From the NCBI RefSeq assembly GCF_000178955.2, contig NC_016631.1:5270001-5334000 (forward strand): a stretch of DNA of 64,000 nucleotides. Direction: 5' to 3'. The notes under the pieces are model-generated. The model did no database searches, had not been told where the DNA came from, and saw nothing but the letters and a program-made list of their open reading frames with translations. Below are positions 52,199 through 64,000 of this stretch, piece by piece; position 1 is the first letter of the stretch, and every line of letters begins with the position of its first letter. A program made the position numbers and the translations under genes. The stretch is from Granulicella mallensis MP5ACTX8. GTDB taxonomy: Bacteria; Acidobacteriota; Terriglobia; Terriglobales; Acidobacteriaceae.

Positions 52199-53161
52199 TT
52201 ATGCGGTGATGGATTGTTGGGAAGAGGGGTTCCGTTGAGAGTGGAGGAACTGGGATCGAACTTCGCGGGCTTTTGCGTTGAGTCGAACGAGCAGTTTATG
52301 AGCTAAGGCGATGCGTATGACTTTGGGAGGCTTTCCCGCGTTGGCGAGCCGTTCTCGGAAGGCGATGAAGTCGGGTTCGTAGCGGCCAACGACGCTGGCA
52401 ACGATGAACAGGATCTCGCGGATAGAGGAACGACCTCCGCGCACCCTGCGTTTGCCCTGGTGCTTACCGCTGTCGTTGGCCAGCGGGGCAACACCGGCCA
52501 GCTTGGAGATGGTTTTGTTAGACAGGGTTCCGATCTCGGGCATCTCGGCCATGAGGCGCGCTACGGTGCGGTCGGCCACGCCCTTGATGGTGCGGAAGGC
52601 CTGATCGAGTTGGCTCCAGAGCGGGTCGGCAGCTAGTAACGCCGCGATGGCTGCGGCCAGTTCACGGATCTGGCGGTTGATTACGGCCAGCAGTTCGGTG
52701 AACGAGGCCTGCACGGCAGGGTCGGTGATCAGGCGCTGCTGGTTGCGCTGAGCGGTGTGAACCTCGGTGAGCTGGCGCAGGCGTGTCACCAGCGCGCGCA
52801 GGTGATGCTGGCTGGCCGGCGACAGGCACATCGGCTGGGAGTTCTTCACTTCCGCGAACCAGGCGATCATACCTGCGTCGATCGCATCGGTCTTCTCGGC
52901 TCTCCCCATGCTGAGCGCGAACTGACGGACCGCGCGCGGGTTGAGGATGGTCACAGCCAGCCCCTGTTCTGAGAGCAACGCGAAGCTCTGCTTTTCGTAG
53001 CCCCCGGTGGCCTCCATCGCCACCAGATCTACCTGGTGCAACCGGCAGAACGCAACCAACTCACTGATGCCTTCCACCGTATTGGCAAAACTGGCTGCTG
53101 CACCCTCTCGGCCTATCCGTACCGCCAAAGAGGCTGAGGATATATCCACTCCACAAATCAT
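52199..53161 (-). CDS. IS110-family transposase (DEDD recombinase)
   Basis: RNA-guided serine/DEDD recombinase of IS110. The start MICGVDISSASLAVRIGREG is the RuvC-like beginning with the first Asp. VAMEATGGYEKQ gives the Glu, and GRAEKTDAIDAGMIAWFAEV the paired Asp. The C-terminal Transposase_20 part contains IKGVADRTVARLMAEMPEIG and KLAGVAPLANDSGKHQGKRR with a candidate Ser. I chose the ATG at 53161 since IS110 proteins begin close to the first RuvC Asp; upstream in-frame starts would run into the non-coding end. Full length at 320 residues, without stops. Confidence 0.92.
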   Translation of the reverse strand: MICGVDISSASLAVRIGREGAAASFANTVEGISELVAFCRLHQVDLVAMEATGGYEKQSFALLSEQGLAVTILNPRAVRQFALSMGRAEKTDAIDAGMIAWFAEVKNSQPMCLSPASQHHLRALVTRLRQLTEVHTAQRNQQRLITDPAVQASFTELLAVINRQIRELAAAIAALLAADPLWSQLDQAFRTIKGVADRTVARLMAEMPEIGTLSNKTISKLAGVAPLANDSGKHQGKRRVRGGRSSIREILFIVASVVGRYEPDFIAFRERLANAGKPPKVIRIALAHKLLVRLNAKAREVRSQFLHSQRNPSSQQSITA

Positions 53162-53174
53162 GCGTGTCACGGTA

Positions 53175-53368
53175 ACCTGCCTTGTATGTGCGACTGAAAT
53201 CATGCGACTGTTCGGTCGTGCGCGACTTGGGCAGCGGTCCCGGGGCTGAGCGTCGGTCAATAGACCACAGGATGAACGGGTGCCGTCCGCCCGTGGGGGA
53301 ACCAATACATCGGTTCCCCCCTCTACGACAGTCTCCTACAAACACTGTCGCTCACTTATAGATACAAG
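53175..53368 (-). ncRNA. Candidate IS110 bridge RNA
   Basis: Non-coding end upstream of the transposase, about 190 bases, read on the minus strand. In order it has a stem CGACAGT/ACTGTCG, a stem GGGGGAACC/GGTTCCCCC, then TCATCCTG (53268-53275), a small hairpin GGTC-TATT-GACC, and CGCTCAG (53246-53252). These match the left (TCATCCT) and right (complement of CTGAGCG) halves of the insertion site. Further on are ACAGTCGC (53204-53211) and ATACAAG (53181-53187), which match the element's own ends. This is the layout of target-binding and donor-binding loops of the IS621 bridge RNA. Exact transcript ends are not determined. Confidence 0.82.
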
Positions 53369-54994: not shown

Positions 54995-56965
54995 ATGAGC
55001 CGAACCTATTCGCTATCTTTGCCTGCTCTGGGGCTTGTCCTGTTTTCCGCCTTCACCCTTCACGCTCAAACTCCCGCAACAGGAGAAGGCTGGCCCACCT
55101 ATGGCGGCGATCCGGGCGGTCAGCGCTACTCCAGTGCGGCCCAGATCACGCGGAAGAATGTCGCAAAGCTGCATCCCGTCTGGACGTATCACACCCACGC
55201 GCTCGAGACCTCCAATCTTTCGGGAAGCAAAAGCAACTTTGAAGCCACACCGATCCTCTTCAACGAGACCCTGTACCTCACCACGGCCTTCGATCGCATC
55301 ATCGCGCTCGACCCGGCAACAGGCGCGGAACGCTGGACCTACGATCCTCATATTCCTGACGATCTCGTCACAGGCAACTACACCTCGCGCGGCGTTGCTG
55401 CCTGGCAGAGTCCCGTAAGCAACGACTCTTCCTGCGCCGGTCGAATCTTCGTGGCCACACTCGACGCACGCCTGATCGCCGTCGATGCTGCCACCGGCAA
55501 ACCTTGCGCCGATTTCGGCGACAACGGCGTGGTCAATCTCAAGACCAACATCCCCACCCTGACGAATTACAGGTCCTTCGGGAATACCTCGCCACCCACC
55601 GTCATCGGCGATGTCGTGGTCGTGGGCTCAGCCGTTCCTGATAACCAGGCGGTTGAGGTCGAGCCCGGTGTCGTTCGCGGCTACGATGTGCGCACGGGCC
55701 GCCTGCTCTGGGGCTGGGACCCGCTTCCCTGGGCGACGCAGCAGCATCCACGCACAGGCGCCGGCAATGCCTGGGCCGTCATCGCTGCCGATCCGGCGCA
55801 CAATCTCGTCTTCGTCCCCACCGGCGCTCCCTCGCCCGACTTCTACGGAGGTCTGCGCCCCGGCGACAATAAAGACGCCAACTCCATCGTCGCGCTCGAC
55901 GCCCGCACCGGCAAAAAGGTCTGGGCCTTCCAGTTGGTGCATCACGATATCTGGGACTACGACGTCGCCGCCGAACCTCTGCTCTTCGACTTCCAGGGCC
56001 ACATCCCCGCCCTCGCCGTCTCGGCCAAGATCGGCAGCGTCTTCGTTCTCAACCGCCTCACCGGCGAGCCGCTCTACCCTGTCGAAGAACGCCCTGTTCC
56101 CGCCAGCGATATTCCCGACGAACGGATCTCCCCGACCCAGCCTTTCTCTTCGCTGCCCCCGATGAACCCGCTCACCATCGACCCTAAAAAGCTCAAAGGC
56201 CATAATGCGCAGAGCAAAGCAGTCTGTTCCGCCAAACTTCGTAGCCTGCGTTATGACGGCATCTTTACGCCACCTAGCATAGGCGGCACTTTGCAGTATC
56301 CCGGCAGCCTCGGCGGCATCAACTGGGCTTCCATGTCCTTCGATCCGGAGACGGGGATACTCTACGCCAACACCAATGGGTCGGCCTACGAGATTCGGCT
56401 CATCGACCGCCTGCACTATCCTCCCGATAGCCATGCCAATCCGGCACAGTCCGCTGAGGCCAATCCCAAGGGATCTACGAATTACAGCTATCAGCGCAGC
56501 CATAATATGGTGAACAGTCCCGACGCTGTTGGCGAAATCTCAGCCAATGCCGGGGCTCCCTATCTCATCTACCGCCGGGTGCTGCAGGACAACGACGGCC
56601 GCCCCTGCACACCGACTCCCTGGGGCGCCACCAGCGCGCTAAATCTCAATACTGGTAAGTTCCTCTGGCGCAAACCGCTCGGCACGCTCGATCCTGGCCG
56701 GCATACCGGCACCGTCAACTTCGGAGCCCCCATCGTTACCGCCGGAGGGCTGCTCTTCACCGCAGGCACATCCGAGCCGCTTCTCCGCGCAATCGATAAA
56801 GCCACGGGCAAAGAGGTCTGGACCGGCAAGCTGCCGGTTCCTGCGCAATCCACGCCGATGACCTACATGTTCCACGGACGCCAGTATGTCGTGATCTCAG
56901 CCGGAGGGCATGGGGGACTGGGAACTCCGCTGGGCGATTCGGTGGTCGCTTTCGCTCTGCAATAA
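54995..56965 (+). CDS. PQQ-dependent dehydrogenase (glucose/quinate type)
   Basis: Periplasmic quinoprotein, 656 residues, with a signal peptide (LPALGLVLFSAFTLHAQ). The eight-bladed propeller begins with WPTYGGDPGGQRYSSAAQIT. PQQ- and metal-site family markers follow, such as FEATPILFNETLYLTTAFDR, RGVAAWQ, GNTSPPTVIGDVVVVGSAVP, HHDIWDYDVAAEPLL and a terminal GHGGLGTPLGDSVVAF. It lacks the five-helix membrane anchor of E. coli glucose dehydrogenase and the cytochrome domain of alcohol dehydrogenases, so electrons probably go to quinone through another partner. Substrate is a sugar or polyol by family resemblance. It is convergent with the kinase gene, 19 bases apart. Confidence 0.9.
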   Translation: MSRTYSLSLPALGLVLFSAFTLHAQTPATGEGWPTYGGDPGGQRYSSAAQITRKNVAKLHPVWTYHTHALETSNLSGSKSNFEATPILFNETLYLTTAFDRIIALDPATGAERWTYDPHIPDDLVTGNYTSRGVAAWQSPVSNDSSCAGRIFVATLDARLIAVDAATGKPCADFGDNGVVNLKTNIPTLTNYRSFGNTSPPTVIGDVVVVGSAVPDNQAVEVEPGVVRGYDVRTGRLLWGWDPLPWATQQHPRTGAGNAWAVIAADPAHNLVFVPTGAPSPDFYGGLRPGDNKDANSIVALDARTGKKVWAFQLVHHDIWDYDVAAEPLLFDFQGHIPALAVSAKIGSVFVLNRLTGEPLYPVEERPVPASDIPDERISPTQPFSSLPPMNPLTIDPKKLKGHNAQSKAVCSAKLRSLRYDGIFTPPSIGGTLQYPGSLGGINWASMSFDPETGILYANTNGSAYEIRLIDRLHYPPDSHANPAQSAEANPKGSTNYSYQRSHNMVNSPDAVGEISANAGAPYLIYRRVLQDNDGRPCTPTPWGATSALNLNTGKFLWRKPLGTLDPGRHTGTVNFGAPIVTAGGLLFTAGTSEPLLRAIDKATGKEVWTGKLPVPAQSTPMTYMFHGRQYVVISAGGHGGLGTPLGDSVVAFALQ

Positions 56966-56984: not shown

Positions 56985-57962
56985 TCACTCGGCGCTCAGG
57001 CGAGCACGGCGAACGGTCTTGATCGGCGCCTTGGCTGTGGCAGGGATCGCCAGGCGCTCGCGGAACTCGGGCCGTGAAAATCCGAGTCCTGCCAATGCTC
57101 CCGAGACCTCAAAGGCACTTTGAAAGCGATCCTCTCGCTTGGTTGCCAGCAGTTTTTCGAGCAGGTGCTTGATGGCTTTGTCCTGTGTCACGGCAGGAGG
57201 GAGCTTCCAGTCTCCCTTAAGATGCTTTCGATCAATCTCATCCAGCGTTTCCGCATGGAACAGTGGTAGCCCCGTGAGCATCTCCGCCAGGATGGCTCCG
57301 AGCGAGTAGAGGTCGCTGCGAAAGTCCGGGGTTTCGCCGCGCAATTGTTCGGGGCTGGTGTACAGCGGAGTGCCACCGCGAAAAGAGCGCTCGCGGCCAC
57401 AGGCCTCCGAGTGCGAGATTCCGAAATCGAGCAGGCGGTAGAGTCCGAAGATATCGAGCCGGATATTGGCAGGAGTCAGGTCGCAGTGGACGATGCCCTC
57501 GGTCTCCGCAAAGCTGAGCAAACTACTGATTTGTGCGGCAAAATCGAGAGTCTCTGCACGCGACAGAGGACCGTTTCGCTGCAGCAGCTTATCGACGTCC
57601 TCGCCTTCGATATAAGGCATGGTCATGAAGAACAGACCGTCCAGTTCCCCGAAATCAAAGACCGGCACAGCGTTCGGATGGCCTCCGAGCCGCGCGGCAT
57701 GAGCGGCCTCCGCACGAAAGCTGCGGATGATGCCCGGCTTGCCGGCAAGGCGCGGATGCAGCACCTTCGCGACGAACAGGCCTTTATGCAAACGATGGCG
57801 CAGCTGGAAGATCGTTGCCATTCCGCCGATGGCGAGGGGGCGCAGCACCTCGAAGCGGCCGCCAAAGATGATCTGCAGCCGAGACGCAATATCGGTAAGG
57901 TCAGCGCCGTTATCCACGTTCAATGGCGCAGCCTTTGCCTGGCTTATCCCTAAGGCGATCAC
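56985..57962 (-). CDS. Cytoplasmic Ser/Thr protein kinase (last gene of Ubl operon)
   Basis: Hanks-type kinase, 325 residues, without membrane helix or sensor domain. IGGMATIFQLRHR is a Gly-rich loop, Lys66 is in LFVAKVL, Glu85 in the C-helix, the catalytic loop reads HCDLTPANIRLD (159-170), DFG is in LLDFGISH and the activation segment ends GGTPLYTSPEQLRG. The HRD Arg and the usual Lys after Asp are replaced by Cys and Thr, so activity may be altered though the catalytic Asp, Asn and DFG remain. The GTG start overlaps the stop of the E2-like gene (GTGA). An FHA protein and a TssB-like gene lie close by, suggesting that it phosphorylates one of them. Confidence 0.88.
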   Translation of the reverse strand: MIALGISQAKAAPLNVDNGADLTDIASRLQIIFGGRFEVLRPLAIGGMATIFQLRHRLHKGLFVAKVLHPRLAGKPGIIRSFRAEAAHAARLGGHPNAVPVFDFGELDGLFFMTMPYIEGEDVDKLLQRNGPLSRAETLDFAAQISSLLSFAETEGIVHCDLTPANIRLDIFGLYRLLDFGISHSEACGRERSFRGGTPLYTSPEQLRGETPDFRSDLYSLGAILAEMLTGLPLFHAETLDEIDRKHLKGDWKLPPAVTQDKAIKHLLEKLLATKREDRFQSAFEVSGALAGLGFSRPEFRERLAIPATAKAPIKTVRRARLSAE

Positions 57963-58489
57963 GACAGCCGGTGTCTCCTATTCTGCGTTTCTGGATTCAG
58001 CGCAAAGGTATCATGCGTGACTCCGAGAAGCGGCTTTACCTGGATCGGTGCGAATCCTTCGCTGTGCTGCTGCTCGATCCAGCCCAAGGCCTCCGGCTGC
58101 ATGATGTGCAGGGCTTCGCGGTTGTACAAACGTCCATCCATCATCGCAACGATCTTGTGCAGGGCATGCTCCACCGTGTTCTCGGCCCGATGCCGCTCCC
58201 AGAGACAAACAAAACCCGTTTCCGGATGAACATTAGGATGCTGAAAGGCAGTGTCCACGTAGAGCTCCAGCGGTACTGCGGGAAAGTATGACGGATAAAG
58301 CACCCGCAGGCGGTGCACGGTCGCCGGAGCCTCGTGTACGGCGCGAGCCAGACGGGCGGGAGTTTCGCGCAGCGTCACACGAAACAGTTTGTCCTCCGCC
58401 GAGATATCGGTAAGCCTGCCGGGGTTCAACTGCGCGAGCCCCTGCAGCAGATCCCACTCCGCCTGCAGTCTTCGCTCGGAACCGGTCAC
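57959..58489 (-). CDS. E2-like ubiquitin-conjugating protein (UBC fold)
   Basis: 176-residue protein with the UBC core: the E2 pattern YPSYFPAVPLELYV (65-78), FQHPNVHPETGFVCLWERHR with the HPN box (84-86) and the candidate thioester Cys95, then a helical C-terminal half. HPN placed nine residues before a Cys inside G-x-x-C-L is the E2 catalytic architecture. Its job would be to receive the neighbouring Ubl from the E1-like protein as a thioester and pass it to a target. It starts with GTG four bases after the Ubl stop codon and overlaps the kinase gene, so it is part of one transcript. E2 identity is based on motifs, not on a database search. Confidence 0.8.
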   Translation of the reverse strand: MTGSERRLQAEWDLLQGLAQLNPGRLTDISAEDKLFRVTLRETPARLARAVHEAPATVHRLRVLYPSYFPAVPLELYVDTAFQHPNVHPETGFVCLWERHRAENTVEHALHKIVAMMDGRLYNREALHIMQPEALGWIEQQHSEGFAPIQVKPLLGVTHDTFALNPETQNRRHRLS

Positions 58490-58492
58490 AGC

Positions 58493-58753
58493 TTACCCAT
58501 TGGTGGCTGCGGTCGAGACGCGCAGCACGTCGTTGGGACGCACTCCCTGCTGAGAAAGAGGCGCAGCAAAGTCGAGGCTCGATCCGTTCCAGATCACCTC
58601 GGGCTCACCATCGCCCTTCAGCACATTGCCGCGTTCGCGCAGGTCGAAGAGGATCTCCTCCAGCACCATGTTGAGGGTCTCTCCCTCGTCGATATCGACG
58701 TTGTACTTCGTCTCGCCGCTGATTGTTTCGAAGTAGATCTGATACTTGGGCAT
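58493..58753 (-). CDS. Ubiquitin-like protein
   Basis: 86 residues with a beta-grasp pattern: PKYQIYFETISGETKYNVDI (two strands), a helix in GETLNMVLEEILFDLRERG, then EPEVIWNGSSLDF and LSQQGVRPNDVLRVS, the usual ubiquitin-fold order in which a loop with Gly-Val and Asp-x-L-x-V precedes the last strand. The protein ends TNG with a single terminal Gly, not Gly-Gly, which would still permit adenylation by an E1. ATG at 58753 preferred; an in-frame TTG is 21 bases upstream. Similarity to YukD/EsaB of type VII secretion cannot be excluded, but its neighbours are an E1, an E2 and a RING-type protein. Confidence 0.72.
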   Translation of the reverse strand: MPKYQIYFETISGETKYNVDIDEGETLNMVLEEILFDLRERGNVLKGDGEPEVIWNGSSLDFAAPLSQQGVRPNDVLRVSTAATNG

Positions 58754-58793
58754 GGCCGACTTATTCACCTTCAAGGGATTAGGCGCAGCAGAC

Positions 58794-59513
58794 TTATACG
58801 CCGTGGGTTTTAGCAGCTTGTGTCACCGTCATGGTAAGCGATTCCGGTAAATCGGGGAGTGCTTTTCCGCAACGCTGGCACTCTCCGTTATTGAAGTCCC
58901 AGCACTCCCGGCACTGCGGACGCCGGCAGTGAGGGCAGATCCGCAGATCCACCTGCTCGGCGGAGCCGAGACACATCTGGCAGCGGCCATACGTAATACG
59001 AGGCCCCGCAGCCTTCGTCCACCACTTTTCACCCGTGGGCAGAACCGGGACGCGCTGTTCCAGGCACAAGGTGCAACGCCTGTGCTCGAAGCTCCAGCAG
59101 GTCTCCTCGCAGACCTTCAGGTGGCAGCGGGGGCACTGAAAGCTCAAGGCCTGCACGCCCATTCTGCGATTGCACAGCGCACAGCGTATCCGGGTGCGCA
59201 GCAGCACGAACATTGTCACGCCACTGCCTGCGCCGGCGAGCAGAAAGCTGAACCACTCGGCGAAGTCGCTGCGAAACGTGAACTCCGCCAGCAAAACACT
59301 GAGCAGTACAACGCCCGCGCACACCAGCGGAGGCAGCCAGGGACGGCCCGAAGGAAGATCGAAGTGCATCCACAGCAGCGTGATACCGGCGCTCAGAAGC
59401 AGTGCAGCTGGCAGCGCAACGGCGCCACCACCAAGGCAAGCGCCAAACTGGACCGAGCCAAGCAAAATCATCACACCGGCAAGCAGCGCAAAACGTTCAA
59501 GCGACCGGTTCAT
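58794..59513 (-). CDS. Membrane protein with two RING-like zinc modules (candidate E3)
   Basis: 239 residues: four membrane helices in the first 105, then two Cys-rich modules. Numbering from the in-frame TTG one codon upstream of the ATG used here, the first has Cys112, 115, 128, 131, 136, 140, 148, 151 (RCALCNRR...FQCPRCHLKVCEETC). The second has Cys179, 182, 194, 197, 202, 205, 213, 216 (GRCQMCLG...RICPHCRRPQCRECW). Each has eight Cys spaced C-x2-C...C-x2-C-x4-C-x2/3-C-x7-C-x2-C, the RING/treble-clef pattern. It would recruit the E2 at the inner membrane. The ATG at 59513 has AAGGAAGG six bases upstream and lies within the end of the E1-like gene (17-base overlap). Confidence 0.78.
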   Translation of the reverse strand: MNRSLERFALLAGVMILLGSVQFGACLGGGAVALPAALLLSAGITLLWMHFDLPSGRPWLPPLVCAGVVLLSVLLAEFTFRSDFAEWFSFLLAGAGSGVTMFVLLRTRIRCALCNRRMGVQALSFQCPRCHLKVCEETCWSFEHRRCTLCLEQRVPVLPTGEKWWTKAAGPRITYGRCQMCLGSAEQVDLRICPHCRRPQCRECWDFNNGECQRCGKALPDLPESLTMTVTQAAKTHGV

Positions 59514-60600
59514 CAACGTCCTTCCTTCTCATCATGGGAGCAAAAACACGGCGGAACAGGTATAGATGCTGTTTCGTTAATCCTAGCTGCCGCGGCGTAA
59601 AATCCGCCGCAAAATCTTCATCTCCCACACTATCGATGATCCTGGTGGGTTCATAGCTGCCGATGGTGCCGCACTGCGCGCAGACCGCTTTACGGCGAAG
59701 CCGGGCGACGCGCAGATTCGGCGTGCTCTGGTGGCCGCACACACGGCAGCGTGCCTCCAGGCAATGCGGCCAAAGTAACTGTACCCGCATATTGTTTCTA
59801 TGGAGCGAATCCCGAATAGGTTGATCGTAACCCAGTGGAAGCCACTCGCCCTCAGGCAGATCGTGCCAGGGACAGGCCACACTTCGGGGCAGCTTCAAAT
59901 CCTTCTGTATCCATGATTGTGCCGTAAGATCCCACTCGATACGCGAAGAGAAGGAAGTTTTTAAACAATGTTTATCTGCGGAGAAAGACTGAATTAACTC
60001 AAGCATGGCGGCGGCGGTCTCTCGCACGGCATCGGGCGCGCCAGTCATGGCAGGAGCTTCCGCAGGAAGGCCGCATCCCAAAGAGGTTGAGAGGGCATAG
60101 GATAGCAGCTCGGCGCGCCTGATTTCGGAGATTCCACAAAGATAACAGGCAGCATCGTGCGAGGGAGAAAACCAGGACACCCGTCCGGCAGGAATCCCCT
60201 CTCCCCTCACGCCGCCATCCAGCATCGGCAGGTTCAGCACACGGGCGGCAAGGGCAGTCTCGACTCGAGCCAAAGTACTGTCAGTACAGGAGATAACGAG
60301 ATCGCACAAAGCCAATCGGCCTAGACCGGTATCCGCAATCTCTGCCGCAAAACTCTCCCAGGTCAGGCTATACTTTTGCCGGGCCCAATCGACAAGTAAC
60401 TCTGTTTTGTAGTGGGTGAAGGCTTCATGCTCCTCTTCGGCAACGATGTCTCGATACAACGAACTAAGAGCCACATTGTGCGGCTCAAGCCGGTCTGGAT
60501 CGATGAGCAAAACGTTGGAGAAGGAGTTTTCAGCCAGCAGCCTGCTCAGCTCGGAGCCAAGTGTCCCTGCACCGACCACAGCAAGACGCAGGTCTTTCAA
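59497..60600 (-). CDS. E1-like ThiF-family adenylyltransferase
   Basis: 367-residue ThiF/MoeB/E1-superfamily protein that would adenylate the Ubl C-terminus and take it on a Cys. The Rossmann loop AVVGAGTLGSELSRLL, Asp34 and LLIDPDRLEPHNV, and CDLVISCTDSTLARV (nucleotide-binding) are visible. C152-x2-C155 (ACYLCG) is one zinc-knuckle half. Cys176 (STSLGCGLPAE) sits where many members carry the catalytic Cys. A C-terminal zinc ribbon follows (CRVCG, CAQCG). The start is TTG at 60600, supported by GGAG five bases upstream and no better ATG/GTG. It heads the operon E1-RING-Ubl-E2-kinase. Confidence 0.83.
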   Translation of the reverse strand: MKDLRLAVVGAGTLGSELSRLLAENSFSNVLLIDPDRLEPHNVALSSLYRDIVAEEEHEAFTHYKTELLVDWARQKYSLTWESFAAEIADTGLGRLALCDLVISCTDSTLARVETALAARVLNLPMLDGGVRGEGIPAGRVSWFSPSHDAACYLCGISEIRRAELLSYALSTSLGCGLPAEAPAMTGAPDAVRETAAAMLELIQSFSADKHCLKTSFSSRIEWDLTAQSWIQKDLKLPRSVACPWHDLPEGEWLPLGYDQPIRDSLHRNNMRVQLLWPHCLEARCRVCGHQSTPNLRVARLRRKAVCAQCGTIGSYEPTRIIDSVGDEDFAADFTPRQLGLTKQHLYLFRRVFAPMMRRKDVDEPVA

Positions 60601-60789
60601 GCGTTCTCCGATAGAAGTGCAGTAACGATGCTGCGGAAACTTTCCCCATTAATATTAATTGACATTTCTTGCATACAACTTCATGCCTTCTTGATTACTC
60701 CAATACACTTTACACACAACTCAGAACGGTACCGGCCAGGAGCCGTCTCGTATCTGCTGTTGAATTAATGCTATTTTCCGATTGGCAAG
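60601..60789. promoter_or_regulatory. Divergent promoter region between Ubl operon and FHA/secretion operon
   Basis: A 189-base AT-rich gap between two divergent operons. It contains TTGACATTTCTTGCATAC and AATTAATATTAATT-like tracts that could supply promoter elements. It is the only apparent control region for both gene sets, so they may be expressed together. I cannot call exact -35/-10 boxes. Confidence 0.55.
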
Positions 60790-61740
60790 ATGAGTATTTA
60801 TCGTGGGCTTTATTTCTCGACGTTGATCGGTACGCTGGGTGGGCTTCTGGCATCACTATGCGCTGTTCTGCTTTCGATCCCGATGGCAGATACAGGACTG
60901 CGCTGGTTGCCGGACACTGTGAGCCTCATGGCCTTCGGGCCTGTGGTTGGCGTGCTCCTCTATCTTCATTTTGACCGCGTTCTGCTGGGCAGGATTCGCG
61001 GCTCCTCTATCGGATTCGGACTACTCCTCGGCGTGCTCTCCGGCGCTGCCGCCTCGGCGCTTGCCTTTGAGCTGCGGAACGGCATCTCCTCTACCTCTCC
61101 CACGCTCTATCGTGTGACGGTCTGGGCCTTCTGCTTCTCTCTCATCGGTCTGGGCCTCGGCCTTCGCTGGATGCAGACGAATCGCGGACGCATCCTTCAC
61201 ACCTATGCGGGCAGCCTTGCCGGCGGCCTGCTGGGCGGGCTGGCCTTCATCCTCTTCACACCTCACCTGTCGGCCGGAATCTCCATGTGCAGCCTGATCC
61301 TCGCAGGTGCGGGAACGGGCTTCGGAAGCGGAATCGCCCCGGTCCTGGTGCGCGAAGGCATCATGCGCTTCATCAGCTCCGGCGACGCGCGGGCACAGAA
61401 CAAGCTCGGCAAGAACAAGACCCTGTGGGATCTCGCCATGGGTGAGTCCTACGTTCTCGGCAGTGCTCCAACAGCACAGAGCGGAAGCCGTTTTCAGCAG
61501 GGTGCCGATATCTGCATTCCCGATTCTTCCGTCGCTCCGCGCCATGCCGTTGTCTTTCATAAGGATGGCCGCTACTTCATCGCACGGCATCCAGATGCGT
61601 CCGGTCCCGAAGGCATAGCGAAGTACGTTCTGCGCATCAAAGGAAAGACGGTGGTCAGCTCACAGGAGCTGCATCCCACTGATGATCTTCTGATTGGCCG
61701 CACCGCTCTACGCTTCGAAAGCAGAAAGCAAGGGGAATAG
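60790..61740 (+). CDS. Membrane protein with C-terminal FHA domain
   Basis: 316 residues: about six membrane helices in the first 190 (for example LIGTLGGLLASLCAVLLS, SLAGGLLGGLAFILFT, CSLILAGAGTGFGSGIAPVL), then a cytoplasmic FHA domain from about 215 onwards. The FHA core is visible: YVLGSAPTAQSGS at the start, then PDSSVAPRHAVVFHKDGRYF with the pThr-contacting Ser/Arg-His region at about 251, and DDLLIGRTALRFE at the end. FHA domains bind phosphothreonine, which fits the kinase 3 kb away. T6SS loci often carry an FHA scaffold phosphorylated by a PpkA-type kinase; this one is membrane-bound. The next gene begins one base after its stop. Confidence 0.82.
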   Translation: MSIYRGLYFSTLIGTLGGLLASLCAVLLSIPMADTGLRWLPDTVSLMAFGPVVGVLLYLHFDRVLLGRIRGSSIGFGLLLGVLSGAAASALAFELRNGISSTSPTLYRVTVWAFCFSLIGLGLGLRWMQTNRGRILHTYAGSLAGGLLGGLAFILFTPHLSAGISMCSLILAGAGTGFGSGIAPVLVREGIMRFISSGDARAQNKLGKNKTLWDLAMGESYVLGSAPTAQSGSRFQQGADICIPDSSVAPRHAVVFHKDGRYFIARHPDASGPEGIAKYVLRIKGKTVVSSQELHPTDDLLIGRTALRFESRKQGE

Positions 61741-61741
61741 C

Positions 61742-63208
61742 GTGAAGATCATTCAACATCTTGCCGTTCTCACCTGCGCTGCCGCGGCCATCGCCTCTGC
61801 CCAGCAACCTGTGAAGCCGTCCCGGCTGCTGCTGACCTCCCAACCCAAGTTGGTGGACTGCGCTCCCGTCATGCAGTCTCCGTGCATGTCGGCCGCTGTT
61901 ACACCGGGCGATGCCGAGGGCAAGCCCGCTCCGGTCACCCTGCCTGCGGCGTCACAACTTGCGGGGGCTTTCACCATGCAAAGCGCCTCCGGTGAGGCTA
62001 AGCCGTTCTATGCCAGCGCTGGAAGCGGCCCCGATGCCGGCCAGCACACCAACGTCGTCCTGATGATCGTCGATATCAGCGGCAGCATGAACCAGCCGAT
62101 GGCCGGTGGCAGCACTCGATTCCAATCGCTTAAAAGCGCTATTGCGCAGTTCCTCGCAGGAATGCAGGAAGGCTCGGACCGCGTCGCCATCGTCCCCTTC
62201 GAGAGCCACAACGTCGTTTCAACGATTCGATCCGCAGTCTTCACAACGCATCGGGCCGATGCCCTGGCGCAGTTGAATGCGCTTCCCGCCCCCGGCCCCA
62301 AGAACAACACCGCGCTCTACCAGGCCGTCTTCTCCGGCGTTGATTCCATGAAGGGCGAGCTCGCTTCCCTGCAGCACGAGGGCGCTACCCTCGCGGAACT
62401 GCAGCCCCACCTGATCGTCATGACCGACGGCAAGAACGAAGTGGCCCCCGGCGACGATCCTCAACTCTTGAACGGCGACCTTGGCCTACAGCAGGCCGTG
62501 GCCCAGGTCCAGACTTCGAACCTGGACACCATCGGCATCGGTTTCGGCGATAAGAACGACATCGATGCAGGCGCCCTGCAGAAGCTCACCAAACGGTTCT
62601 TCTATGCCTCGGACGCCAATCAACTGCTCGCGGCGCTGCATGTCAGCCGTTCGGCGGTCAGCCATTCGATTCAGATCACCTGGCCGCTGTCCGAGGCCAA
62701 TCGCGTTGCCCTGATGGGCCGCGACCAGATCTGGACGCCGAGCATGCAGCTGGAAGACGGCTCGGTCCTGACCGGCGACCCGCTTCGCCTCATCGTCCCG
62801 GCTACCAACGCCCCCGCGTACGACCGTGCAGCCTCACCCCAGGAGCTGGAAGCGCTGATCGCCACCCATCCGCCAGCGAATTCCGGATGGTCGAGCGTTC
62901 TCGTCCACCTATTGCTCTATCTGGGTGCGTCAGCTATCTTGCTCATACTGTGGTTTTGGGTGCCGCGATTGATCTGGGGAGAACAATATTCTAGTTCTGT
63001 CCCTGACCGCTCACGGCGCTGGAGCAGCGATCGTTCAGGTGTCACCTCCGCCTCCGGCGTGCAGGTACGTTCGACCTCGAACCTTCCCGCAGGTTTCACC
63101 CCGGAGCTCGAATCTGCCAGCCCGCTACAACGTTCTGCTGCCCAGACGACGCAGGTTTTACCGCGTAGCGAAGCTTCCCGCACACGTCTTACTTTCGATC
63201 AGAATTAG
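61742..63208 (+). CDS. Von Willebrand factor A-domain protein, secreted/anchored
   Basis: 488 residues from a GTG at 61742; the GTG begins a signal peptide (KIIQHLAVLTCAAAAIASAQ) after a GGGGA-like site, and an upstream in-frame ATG inside the FHA gene was rejected. The vWA domain has an intact metal-ion-dependent adhesion site: Asp111-x-Ser-x-Ser in MIVDISGSMNQP and MTDG (about 227-230). A membrane helix (VHLLLYLGASAILLILWFW) near residue 390 and a basic, Ser-rich cytoplasmic tail follow. It presents a metal-dependent binding domain outside the cytoplasm. PpkA kinases of some T6SS loci have a vWA domain, so here kinase and vWA functions may be split. Confidence 0.83.
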   Translation: MKIIQHLAVLTCAAAAIASAQQPVKPSRLLLTSQPKLVDCAPVMQSPCMSAAVTPGDAEGKPAPVTLPAASQLAGAFTMQSASGEAKPFYASAGSGPDAGQHTNVVLMIVDISGSMNQPMAGGSTRFQSLKSAIAQFLAGMQEGSDRVAIVPFESHNVVSTIRSAVFTTHRADALAQLNALPAPGPKNNTALYQAVFSGVDSMKGELASLQHEGATLAELQPHLIVMTDGKNEVAPGDDPQLLNGDLGLQQAVAQVQTSNLDTIGIGFGDKNDIDAGALQKLTKRFFYASDANQLLAALHVSRSAVSHSIQITWPLSEANRVALMGRDQIWTPSMQLEDGSVLTGDPLRLIVPATNAPAYDRAASPQELEALIATHPPANSGWSSVLVHLLLYLGASAILLILWFWVPRLIWGEQYSSSVPDRSRRWSSDRSGVTSASGVQVRSTSNLPAGFTPELESASPLQRSAAQTTQVLPRSEASRTRLTFDQN

Positions 63209-63226: not shown

Positions 63227-63727
63227 ATGCCTCTGGTAAAAGTTGTTCGTAAAGGAGTTACCCCCGCGGTTCGAAAGGTTCCCACCTCGACGGCCGCCGC
63301 GATGCTGCCGATGACGCTGAATCGCGTTGGTGGCGAAGCCGTCTCCGAGACGGAAGACCTGGTGAAGGTAGAGGACCTCGGCGATGCGTTCCGGAAGTTC
63401 GAGCCCAAGCTCAGCTTTCGTGGCTACGCCGGCCCCGAGGAGACAGAGTTCCGCTCCGAGTTAGAGTTCCGCTCCATCAAGGACTTCGATCCCGAGAACC
63501 TGCAGAAGCGGCAGGAGGTCAAGGATGCAGAGGGTAATTCTCACTTCCTGCGCAACGACCTGGCCGATCTGAAGCAGAACATCGACCTGCTCTACCGGTT
63601 GAAAGACCGCTGGAAGCTGCCGGCAGTACGCCGCGCCTGGAGCAATGCCGCCCAGCGCGAGGAGATCGTCAATGCTCTCGGCAAGCTGCGCTCCGAACTC
63701 GAACGTGTTGCGGAAGGGGAGAAGTAA
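63227..63727 (+). CDS. tssB: TssB/VipA-like contractile sheath small subunit
   Basis: 166-residue protein with the VipA core: LSFRGYAGPEETEFRSELEF then FRSIKDFDPENL, which matches the family's (S/L)(K/D)DFxPE motif, then a helical region LRNDLADLKQNIDLLYRLKD with RWKLPAVRRAWSN. In T6SS and related contractile systems VipA pairs with VipB/TssC to form the sheath. AGGAG lies six bases upstream of the ATG. It follows the vWA gene by 18 bases and is followed by another gene after three bases, as tssB normally precedes tssC. Divergence from the well-known proteins is considerable, so a different contractile injection system is possible. Confidence 0.72.
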   Translation: MPLVKVVRKGVTPAVRKVPTSTAAAMLPMTLNRVGGEAVSETEDLVKVEDLGDAFRKFEPKLSFRGYAGPEETEFRSELEFRSIKDFDPENLQKRQEVKDAEGNSHFLRNDLADLKQNIDLLYRLKDRWKLPAVRRAWSNAAQREEIVNALGKLRSELERVAEGEK

Positions 63728-63730
63728 ACC

Positions 63731-64000
63731 ATGGCTGAGACCACGACATTGAACCGCACCACCGAGCAGATCCTGGGCAACAGCCCCGCACGTGAGTTGC
63801 TTCAGGACATCTTCGCCGATCTTCATCCCGGCCTGACCAACGAAAAGCGCGACCTGGCCAGCATCTTCTCCGCCCAGTCGGCCAAGGAGTTCCTCGGCCA
63901 GCTCACGAACTTCGAGCAACTGATCAGCGCCGACGACAGCTACGAGCAGACCGTCAAGAAGCTGCAGGGCCAGATCGACAGCGCCGAAGGCATCCGCGAT
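63731..64000 (+). CDS. Partial gene at right edge, possible sheath partner
   Basis: Open from the ATG at 63731 to the end of the window (90 codons): AETTTLNRTTEQILGNSPAR, followed by mostly helical sequence including LTNFEQLISADDSYEQTVKK. It starts three bases after the tssB-like stop codon. Position suggests tssC/vipB, and N-terminal helices precede the sheath core in that family, but the visible part is not diagnostic. It could also be another small component of the system. Confidence 0.5.
   Translation, partial: MAETTTLNRTTEQILGNSPARELLQDIFADLHPGLTNEKRDLASIFSAQSAKEFLGQLTNFEQLISADDSYEQTVKKLQGQIDSAEGIRD

Follow-up and report, generated by a model that had tools for sequence, protein, structure and literature searches.

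The window analysed here is a stretch of 64,000 nucleotides from Granulicella mallensis MP5ACTX8, a soil bacterium of the Acidobacteriaceae (contig NC_016631.1, positions 5,270,001 to 5,334,000), and it carries on its minus strand an operon encoding a ubiquitin-activating-type enzyme (E1), a membrane protein with two zinc modules that is a candidate ubiquitin ligase (E3), a small ubiquitin-like protein (Ubl), a ubiquitin-conjugating-type enzyme (E2) and a protein kinase. A first-pass annotation, made from the letters alone, had interpreted the first four as a ubiquitination pathway of eukaryotic kind, and our analysis supports that interpretation. The annotation had overlooked the second genomic copy of this operon, its almost unbroken co-occurrence with genes of a type VI secretion system (T6SS), and the T6SS cluster itself, which begins at 60790 on the plus strand, divergent from the operon and 189 bases from the start of the E1 gene:

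59497..60600, minus strand: E1 of the ThiF/MoeB type (Pfam ThiF)
58794..59513, minus strand: E3 candidate, a membrane protein with two zinc modules (AlphaFold2, profile matches, cysteine conservation)
58493..58753, minus strand: Ubl of 86 residues (invariant C-terminal glycine; fold from a fusion relative)
57959..58489, minus strand: E2, predicted UBC fold (UQ_con, structure-database profile matches, fold of a relative at locus L034)
56985..57962, minus strand: serine/threonine protein kinase, the operon's final gene (Pfam Pkinase, E = 7e-33)
60601..60789, no strand: intergenic region of 189 bases separating the divergent modules (from the positions of the reading frames)
60790..61740, plus strand: membrane protein with an FHA-like domain at its C-terminus; it opens the T6SS side (FHA, 0.0023, below cut-off)
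61742..63208, plus strand: vWA-domain membrane protein (Pfam VWA, 1.5e-10)
63227..63727, plus strand: TssB/VipA, small subunit of the T6SS sheath (T6SS_VipA, 9.5e-4, below cut-off), followed by TssC
63731..64000, plus strand: start of TssC, which continues past the window to 65071 (PF17541, tested on a second genomic copy)

The four minus-strand open reading frames between 57959 and 60600 lie where they had been placed, and their close packing is likewise borne out. The frame of the zinc protein spans 58794–59516, and the ATG at 59513 yields a 17-base overlap with the E1 gene; 40 bases separate the zinc protein and Ubl genes and 3 bases the Ubl and E2 genes, and the stop codon of the E2 gene and the start codon of the kinase gene overlap in the bases GTGA. 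The GC content of the five operon genes (0.56–0.61) is like that of the window (0.58), and a promoter and terminator scan of the divergent 189-base region returned no match to a sigma-70 or terminator consensus.

Proteins of the putative conjugation module

Pfam ThiF matches the E1 above its cut-off (E = 9e-13), in agreement with its first description as a ThiF/E1-like enzyme with a candidate Cys176. A profile of the family searched against the Protein Data Bank (PDB) returns UBA7 in the top row (3.6e-22) and MoeB at 6.8e-21, with MoeB, ThiF and UBA5 matched over about 150 residues at E-values of 1e-19 to 1e-21, Citrobacter BubCD at 7.6e-18 and Cap2 at 2.4e-12. All 22 aligned sequences retain Gly10, Gly12 and Gly15 of the GxGxxG loop, Asp34, Asn42, Lys65, Asp107, a CxxC/CPxH zinc site (Cys152/155 and Cys243/His246), a C-terminal zinc ribbon (Cys285/288/307/310) and Cys176, the candidate cysteine for a thioester with the Ubl. 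By our own alignment, Lys65 and Asp107 appear to be the equivalents of Lys86 and Asp130 of MoeB, two residues named in the relevant passages of PMC12355090. NCBIfam gives the E1 distant names of the ThiF/MoeB type, all far below cut-offs, and no matches for the window's E2, Ubl or RING-like zinc protein.

The window's E2, recognised initially by an HPN motif and Cys95, matches Pfam UQ_con with E = 5.1e-5 (23.3 bits, cut-off 27), and all 20 members of its family match this model at E ≤ 0.1, the best at 1.4e-8; the family profile matches E2 enzymes in the PDB at 8e-7 at best. His84, Asn86, Cys95, Trp97 and His128 are invariant in the 20 aligned sequences and Pro85 is present in 16, and the E2 of locus L047, which stands outside this alignment, retains HPN and the cysteine. 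The 86-residue Ubl of the window ends in Asn-Gly; Gly86 is invariant in 21 of 21 sequences, and the terminus is free in 20 of them. Neither Pfam nor a profile search of the PDB gives a match (in the latter, no significant one) for the window's Ubl.

The folds of both proteins are predicted from the relative at L034, in which Ubl and E2 are fused and to which the window's Ubl and E2 are 48% and 33% identical, respectively. An AlphaFold2 model of this fusion (28-row alignment, mean predicted local distance difference test score (pLDDT) 85.4) contains a beta-grasp domain and a UBC domain. VIA places Ube2K at the top for this model (Z 11.9, root-mean-square deviation (RMSD) 3.2, 138 aligned), and the other 49 rows are by title E2 enzymes or E2-containing complexes, save one Fts-Hook3 chain. 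Foldseek matches the Ubl part to ubiquitin, NEDD8 and the ESX-5 pore complex (probability 1.00, E 4e-4 to 9e-4), with TMt values of about 0.6–0.7 for ubiquitin and NEDD8. Bqt4, which headed the Foldseek rows for this model, was rejected as spurious (RMSD 16–18). Absence from any of these structure or profile match lists excludes no family. Sequence and the model of the relative together assign to the E2 a UBC fold with an HPN motif and candidate active-site cysteine, and to the Ubl a beta-grasp fold with a free C-terminal glycine, the folds that the first-pass annotation had anticipated for both.

The zinc protein is numbered here in its 240-residue form, which starts one codon earlier than the listed gene (59516 rather than 59513). 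Four membrane helices are predicted at residues 4–28, 31–51, 61–80 and 85–107, and two zinc modules of eight cysteines each lie at 112–151 (module 1) and 179–216 (module 2); all 16 cysteines are invariant in 22 of 22 sequences. An AlphaFold2 model of the window's own protein (mean pLDDT 88.4) has four long N-terminal helices and the two zinc modules. Of the two RING-like C4-C4 modules expected, the paired sets of eight cysteines are present; module 2 is RING-like by sequence profile, and module 1 looks FYVE-like. At E ≤ 1, 17 of the 20 PDB rows matched by the module 2 profile are named as RING or E3 proteins (best E 0.0032), with Arkadia, RLIM, NOT4, AMFR and EL5 at 0.003–0.025; the module 1 profile matches ribosomal aS34 alone, at 0.025. 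Prok-RING_1 and Prok-RING_2 match 9 and 10 of 22 members at E ≤ 0.1, and the window's protein matches Prok-RING_1 at 0.015, short of the Pfam cut-off. In our reading this is a treble-clef protein with two binuclear modules in tandem, one of them RING-like.

Linkage to a type VI secretion system

On the T6SS side the gene order is FHA-like transmembrane protein, vWA transmembrane protein, TssB, TssC, two Hcp-like proteins, TssE-position protein, TssF-position protein, TssG, TssK, ClpV, a second FHA protein, PP2C (by eye) and VgrG, all those after TssC lying outside the window, and sheath, tube/spike, baseplate and ClpV genes are therein gathered in one cluster. Pfam matches were obtained for TssC (PF17541, 1.6e-16, tested on the second genomic copy), TssG (5.7e-15), TssK/VasE (3.7e-7), a ClpB/ClpV-type AAA_2 domain (3.2e-50), FHA (3.5e-14) and VgrG (Phage_base_V, 1.2e-26). 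TssE, TssF and Hcp are named by position, with profile support weak or absent: profile searches of the PDB were uninformative for the proteins in the TssF and TssE positions, Pfam gave Baseplate_J in 3 of 8 TssF-position members (best 0.019) and nothing fitting for the TssE-position members, and the Hcp-like proteins match PF17642 in 1 of 9 members (0.046), with a Bacteroidales TssD as the best PDB row (0.051). We take PF17541 and PF17642 to be families of the Bacteroidota-type T6SS. The vWA gene has a candidate GTG start at 61742 in a frame open from 61694.

The same genome (6.24 Mb, one contig) carries a second, diverged copy of the operon at 2.28 Mb, where the T6SS module is duplicated too. 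Its order is metallophosphoesterase-like gene, E2, Ubl, RING-like zinc protein and E1, divergent from FHA-transmembrane, vWA, TssB, TssC and more T6SS genes, and the two copies are 39% (E2), 69% (Ubl), 37% (zinc protein) and 33% (E1) identical. In a sample of 396 genomes from the phylum, a Ubl profile found matches in 9, namely six of the window's family, G242 from another family and two marginal ones, G030 and G068, which were dropped (E 6–7e-4, 40 residues; the G030 frames look non-coding). In a family sample it found 19 of 398 genomes, with 20 loci. Eighteen of these loci reach both sides, and all 18 have the arrangement kinase or phosphoesterase, E2, Ubl, zinc protein, E1, divergent from FHA-transmembrane, vWA, TssB and TssC; with four more distinct T6SS-adjoining loci (L058 and L061–L063), the four genes co-occur in their kept order as the ubiquitination reading would have it. 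The FHA-like gene is present in every locus whose contig covers its place, and the vWA and TssB genes are also conserved. The contigs of L042 and L043 end on the E1 side, and the T6SS genes there lie on other contigs ending at the FHA gene. In L047, where E2 and Ubl are present, two genes are inserted between the zinc protein and E1 (L047:10901-12377; by eye, a hydrolase-like gene and a 187-residue protein). The operon's end gene is the kinase in 13 of 20 loci and metallophosphoesterase-like in 7 (L029, L031, L037, L040, L041, L044 and the 2.28-Mb copy).

Strong TssB matches (E < 1e-80) occur in 6 of the 396 phylum genomes, exactly the six Ubl-bearing genomes of the family, and in 20 of the 398 family genomes, 19 of which carry the Ubl, as against none of the 378 others. 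In the twentieth, G617, the contig is 4.3 kb long and breaks off within the FHA gene, short of the E1 side. Weak, partial TssB matches (E 2.5e-6 and weaker), which we read as TssB of ordinary T6SSs, were counted as absence in 16 phylum and 2 family genomes; none of those 16 has a Ubl match. Fisher tests of the association give 1.4e-12 (phylum; G242 entered as Ubl without TssB) and 1.5e-31 (family; G617 entered as TssB without Ubl), values that overstate independence because the genomes counted are related. In the 18 loci with all eight proteins (L061–L063 were omitted, TssC not being found in their sequence pieces), protein distances correlate with those of TssC with r = 0.67 for E1, 0.79 for the zinc protein, 0.89 for Ubl and 0.80 for E2, and 0 of 2000 permutations were as high. 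Mean identity is 75% for Ubl and 76% for TssC, and far lower, at 37–41%, for E1, E2 and the zinc protein.

When 84,980 species genomes were scanned with an E2 profile, 15 loci were returned, 10 of them already counted; the scan relied on a single exact peptide pattern and would miss relatives that are more distant. The loci are assigned to Granulicella, Terriglobus, Edaphobacter, Acidobacteriaceae, Acidobacteria, Bryobacterales, Bryobacteraceae and one ‘Arcobacter’ bin (L062, 66.6% GC and close to a Bryobacteraceae locus), which is probably mislabelled. In L061–L063 (Bryobacterales), the E1, zinc protein, Ubl, E2 and kinase genes, three further genes, and the FHA-transmembrane, vWA and TssB genes all run in one direction, which strengthens the functional link between cascade and T6SS. 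By eye, the genes between kinase and FHA-transmembrane protein encode two secreted-looking proteins and a caspase-like (metacaspase) protein (L061:12264-16092, L062:8832-12674, L063:12149-15997).

The locus of G242, L034, comes from the sole genome with a match among 18 examined of its order. It encodes in one direction PP2C, E1, zinc protein, the Ubl-E2 fusion, a JAMM peptidase (motif HTHPDMGIFLSDTD), FHA-transmembrane protein and vWA protein. The fusion has a GGG junction and lies beside the peptidase (L034:4313-6194, minus strand), and it is possibly a pro-form cleaved by that peptidase; in our reading the JAB-family enzyme occupies the place where a maturation or deconjugation enzyme would be needed. 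Such a pairing is what a conjugating system would predict, and it supports conjugation. A PQQ-dehydrogenase-like gene (by eye) adjoins the module both in the window (54995-56965) and in L034 (L034:9271-11460), at opposite ends, which may be coincidence.

Across 36 loci, a one-sequence hidden Markov model and a JAMM motif scan found a real JAB match in L034 only, and near the window copy they found none, as had been remarked for the visible part of the operon. A motif match in L032 was discarded as an 89-residue frame overlapping the zinc protein gene. The one Prok-JAB match in the G. mallensis genome (E ≤ 1e-3) lies between CysM- and CysO-like genes (by eye), and it was rejected as the lacking deconjugase, being by its neighbours probably the Mec protein of cysteine biosynthesis, though it may have a second role in deconjugation.

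Neither of the two Ubl-linked clusters has a match to the TssJ, TssL or TssM families (Pfam SciN, DotU and IcmF_C). The sole IcmF_C and DotU matches of the genome, at 3.558 and 3.555 Mb, lie inside a third T6SS, and SciN (TssJ) has no match in the genome at E ≤ 1e-3. This third system (L064, G000:C1:3546210-3558760, 3.546–3.559 Mb) is of the ordinary kind, with no ubiquitin-like genes in its gene list. The Ubl-linked clusters may share membrane-complex proteins with this third system or encode diverged versions of their own. No WXG100 or EssC genes were recognised by eye in the gene lists, no dedicated search having been made. Genes resembling effector/immunity candidates follow VgrG (window coordinates 78899-82580, L003:14899-18580), among them a related-looking pair near 80310-81980; the single post-VgrG gene searched has no Pfam match. 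Near the locus, a frame at 52199-53305 on the minus strand was picked out by eye as what we take to be an IS110-like transposase.

A proposed role and its alternatives

The gene identities, the invariant candidate catalytic residues, the linkage to the T6SS and the co-occurrence with it are all observed in silico, and the folds of E2 and Ubl are given in silico by the models. On this footing we think it probable that the operon encodes a dedicated, membrane-anchored Ubl conjugation cascade that serves the linked T6SS. Its anatomy supports the three stages of activation by E1, transfer by E2 and membrane recruitment by the four-helix zinc protein. In the chemistry that we infer, the E1 would adenylate Gly86 of the Ubl and then carry it as a thioester on Cys176, from which it would pass to Cys95 of the E2. 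If its topology is as inferred, the tandem zinc/RING membrane protein would recruit the charged E2 to the inner membrane and, acting as an E3, promote transfer of the Ubl to a lysine of a T6SS-associated protein, for which the candidates are components of the sheath, of the baseplate or of effector loading, and the FHA/vWA membrane proteins. Combined with PP2C, the FHA proteins and the kinase or phosphoesterase linked to it, the cascade could form a second post-translational layer over T6SS assembly or firing and so affect secretion; a switch acting with kinase, PP2C and FHA proteins fits the conserved neighbours. A bolder version, which we put forward tentatively as less likely than not, is that a RING ligase embedded in the inner membrane attaches the Ubl covalently to components of the T6SS and, jointly with the FHA and vWA membrane proteins, stands in for the missing TssJ/L/M anchor, such that assembly or firing would need both phosphorylation and Ubl conjugation.

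Several observations weigh against a conjugation cascade tied to the T6SS. The E1 position aligned with Arg73 of MoeB is Leu in the window, and Arg or Lys in 8 and 4 of the 22 sequences, respectively. The Ubl is identified by fold rather than sequence, and by the model of a relative. Module 2 matches RING proteins weakly, with E no better than 0.003, module 1 resembles FYVE domains in structure (VIA Z 6.0, RMSD 2.7, 49 aligned, from a list dominated by the helical membrane part), and Foldseek finds nothing below E 0.2 for the zinc protein, its rows including FYVE, PHD and RING-H2; a RING-type E3 is accordingly the weaker part of our proposal. The scan of T6SS-linked copies, in which no residue follows the terminal Gly of the Ubl, detected no deconjugase nearby. 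The statistical support is also inflated by the relatedness of the genomes. Finally, G242 has the module with FHA-transmembrane, vWA and PP2C genes, and no TssB match in its 90%-complete genome of 950 contigs, from which it follows that the module can exist without this T6SS; the association with vWA and FHA proteins may therefore predate the link to the T6SS.

The strongest rival holds that the Ubl acts non-covalently as an assembly factor for the secretion machine, in the manner of YukD/EsaB or the Ubl domain of type VII EccD, with E1 and E2 degenerate or otherwise active. The Foldseek match to the ESX-5 pore complex (7b9f_X, probability 1.00, E 7.9e-4) points this way, as does the unconserved Arg73 equivalent, and YukD is reported as not conjugated in the relevant passages of PMC1779556. 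We nevertheless consider it unlikely, since it leaves unexplained the free C-terminal glycine (20 of 21 sequences) and the invariant cysteines of E1 and E2, and since a Ubl-E2 fusion with a GGG junction and a JAB enzyme exists.

It is less probable again that the Ubl is attached to effectors bound for secretion, or that the cascade is exported as a whole, so that conjugation takes place on cargo or inside prey and not on the machine. A cargo-handling role would equally account for the T6SS linkage, and VgrG and further genes do lie downstream in the same cluster; the E3 candidate, though, has four predicted membrane helices, and the cascade genes occur in one copy and one order per T6SS, unlike effector cassettes as commonly portrayed. 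Both the non-covalent and the cargo-tagging roles are, in our judgement, less likely than conjugation that serves the T6SS.

Anti-phage defence of the Bil or CBASS (cyclic-oligonucleotide-based anti-phage signalling system) kind, beside the T6SS by chance, seems improbable to a still greater degree. Bil (PMC13373217) and CBASS Cap2 (PMC12355090) are described as anti-phage in the relevant passages of those sources. PADLOC matches the E1 to E1-E2 models (best 3.2e-10) and the kinase to PD-T4-6 (8.9e-58), the latter in our reading a generic kinase match, and the anti-phage cap2_3 model of NCBIfam reaches 32.5 of its 320 cut-off bits on the E1. The six other proteins given to PADLOC, including E2, Ubl, zinc protein, FHA and vWA proteins, match none of its models, however, and the same T6SS adjoins every complete T6SS-linked locus. 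Nor is a mobile origin indicated, as the Ubl has no plasmid match and none of 17 pattern stretches sought as E2 relatives on viral contigs was confirmed.

A sulfur-carrier or tailoring pathway of the MoeB/ThiF kind is very improbable, for although the E1 profile matches MoeB, ThiF and UBA5 (its top row being UBA7) and the Ubl ends in NG, not GG, all 20 aligned loci encode an E2-like protein whose His, Asn and Cys are invariant, and the gene lists reveal no biosynthetic genes between the modules.

Relation to known systems

Bacterial operons of E1, E2 and Ubl genes are of a known kind, and RING genes within them are reportedly not new as such. Burroughs, Iyer and Aravind (2011) are said to have predicted RING genes in prokaryotic E1/E2/YukD-like Ubl operons, and the present loci, in which Prok-RING_1 and Prok-RING_2 match weakly, probably belong to the same broad class. 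Chambers (2024) reportedly tested a RING-bearing type II Bil. In a search of open-licence literature, to which these two works do not belong, none of the titles and abstract openings read ties a bacterial E1/E2/Ubl operon to a T6SS, and the coupling to the T6SS is apparently the new part. If the proposal is true, bacteria may tag proteins to control a T6SS weapon. Bacterial ubiquitination would then have a new job, done at a defined site, the inner membrane, and on one of a few candidate substrates; the question of what such cascades modify could be put to a direct test in Granulicella, Terriglobus or Edaphobacter. The proposal would also be relevant to the anchoring of a T6SS whose cluster lacks recognisable TssJ/L/M genes, and to how E3 ligases first evolved.

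The relevant passages of the cited sources present bacterial Ubl systems as acting against phage (Bil, CBASS Cap2), as serving biosynthesis (MoeB, ThiF) or as having no proven role (Bub). Bil (BilABCD) shares with the locus an operon that encodes E1, E2 and Ubl, but as described in the relevant part of PMC11354881 its core includes a JAB deubiquitinase, its Ubl has two domains and its E2 carries a CEHH motif; here the E2 has an HxN-Cys arrangement, the single-domain Ubl is free at NG, and a tandem-zinc membrane protein and a T6SS are present with no JAB found. A 2006 survey describes, in its relevant passages (PMC1779556), E1/E2/JAB/Ubl operons with JAB fused or adjacent to E1, a subset of one operon type with another domain replacing JAB, and in type 6d a small Ubl with a conserved terminal glycine. 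The present loci differ in their RING-like membrane protein, their T6SS and the lack of a detected JAB. JAB toxins are the subject of the relevant passages in PMC3482391.

Functionally, the closest precedent for a compact operon of E1, E2 and RING genes is that of Caldiarchaeum subterraneum, in which ubiquitin, E1, E2 and a small RING protein form a sequential cascade as proposed here; it is archaeal and has an Rpn11/JAMM protease, and the passages of PMC5654768 that concern it mention no secretion system. Bub and Cap2 resemble the locus in being bacterial and in having modules of E1 and E2. In Cap2, which acts in phage defence, E1 and E2 are fused (PMC12355090), and Bub operons are putatively immune, with phage protection unshown (PMC13373217), and the relevant passages of these two sources mention no T6SS link for either. 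The secretion cluster itself resembles the Bacteroidota-type T6SS in the match of TssC to PF17541 and in the weak likeness of its Hcp proteins to PF17642 and TssD, with no TssJ/L/M match here. This type goes by the name T6SSiii, and to it the window's cluster adds the ubiquitin-like module and the FHA and vWA transmembrane proteins.

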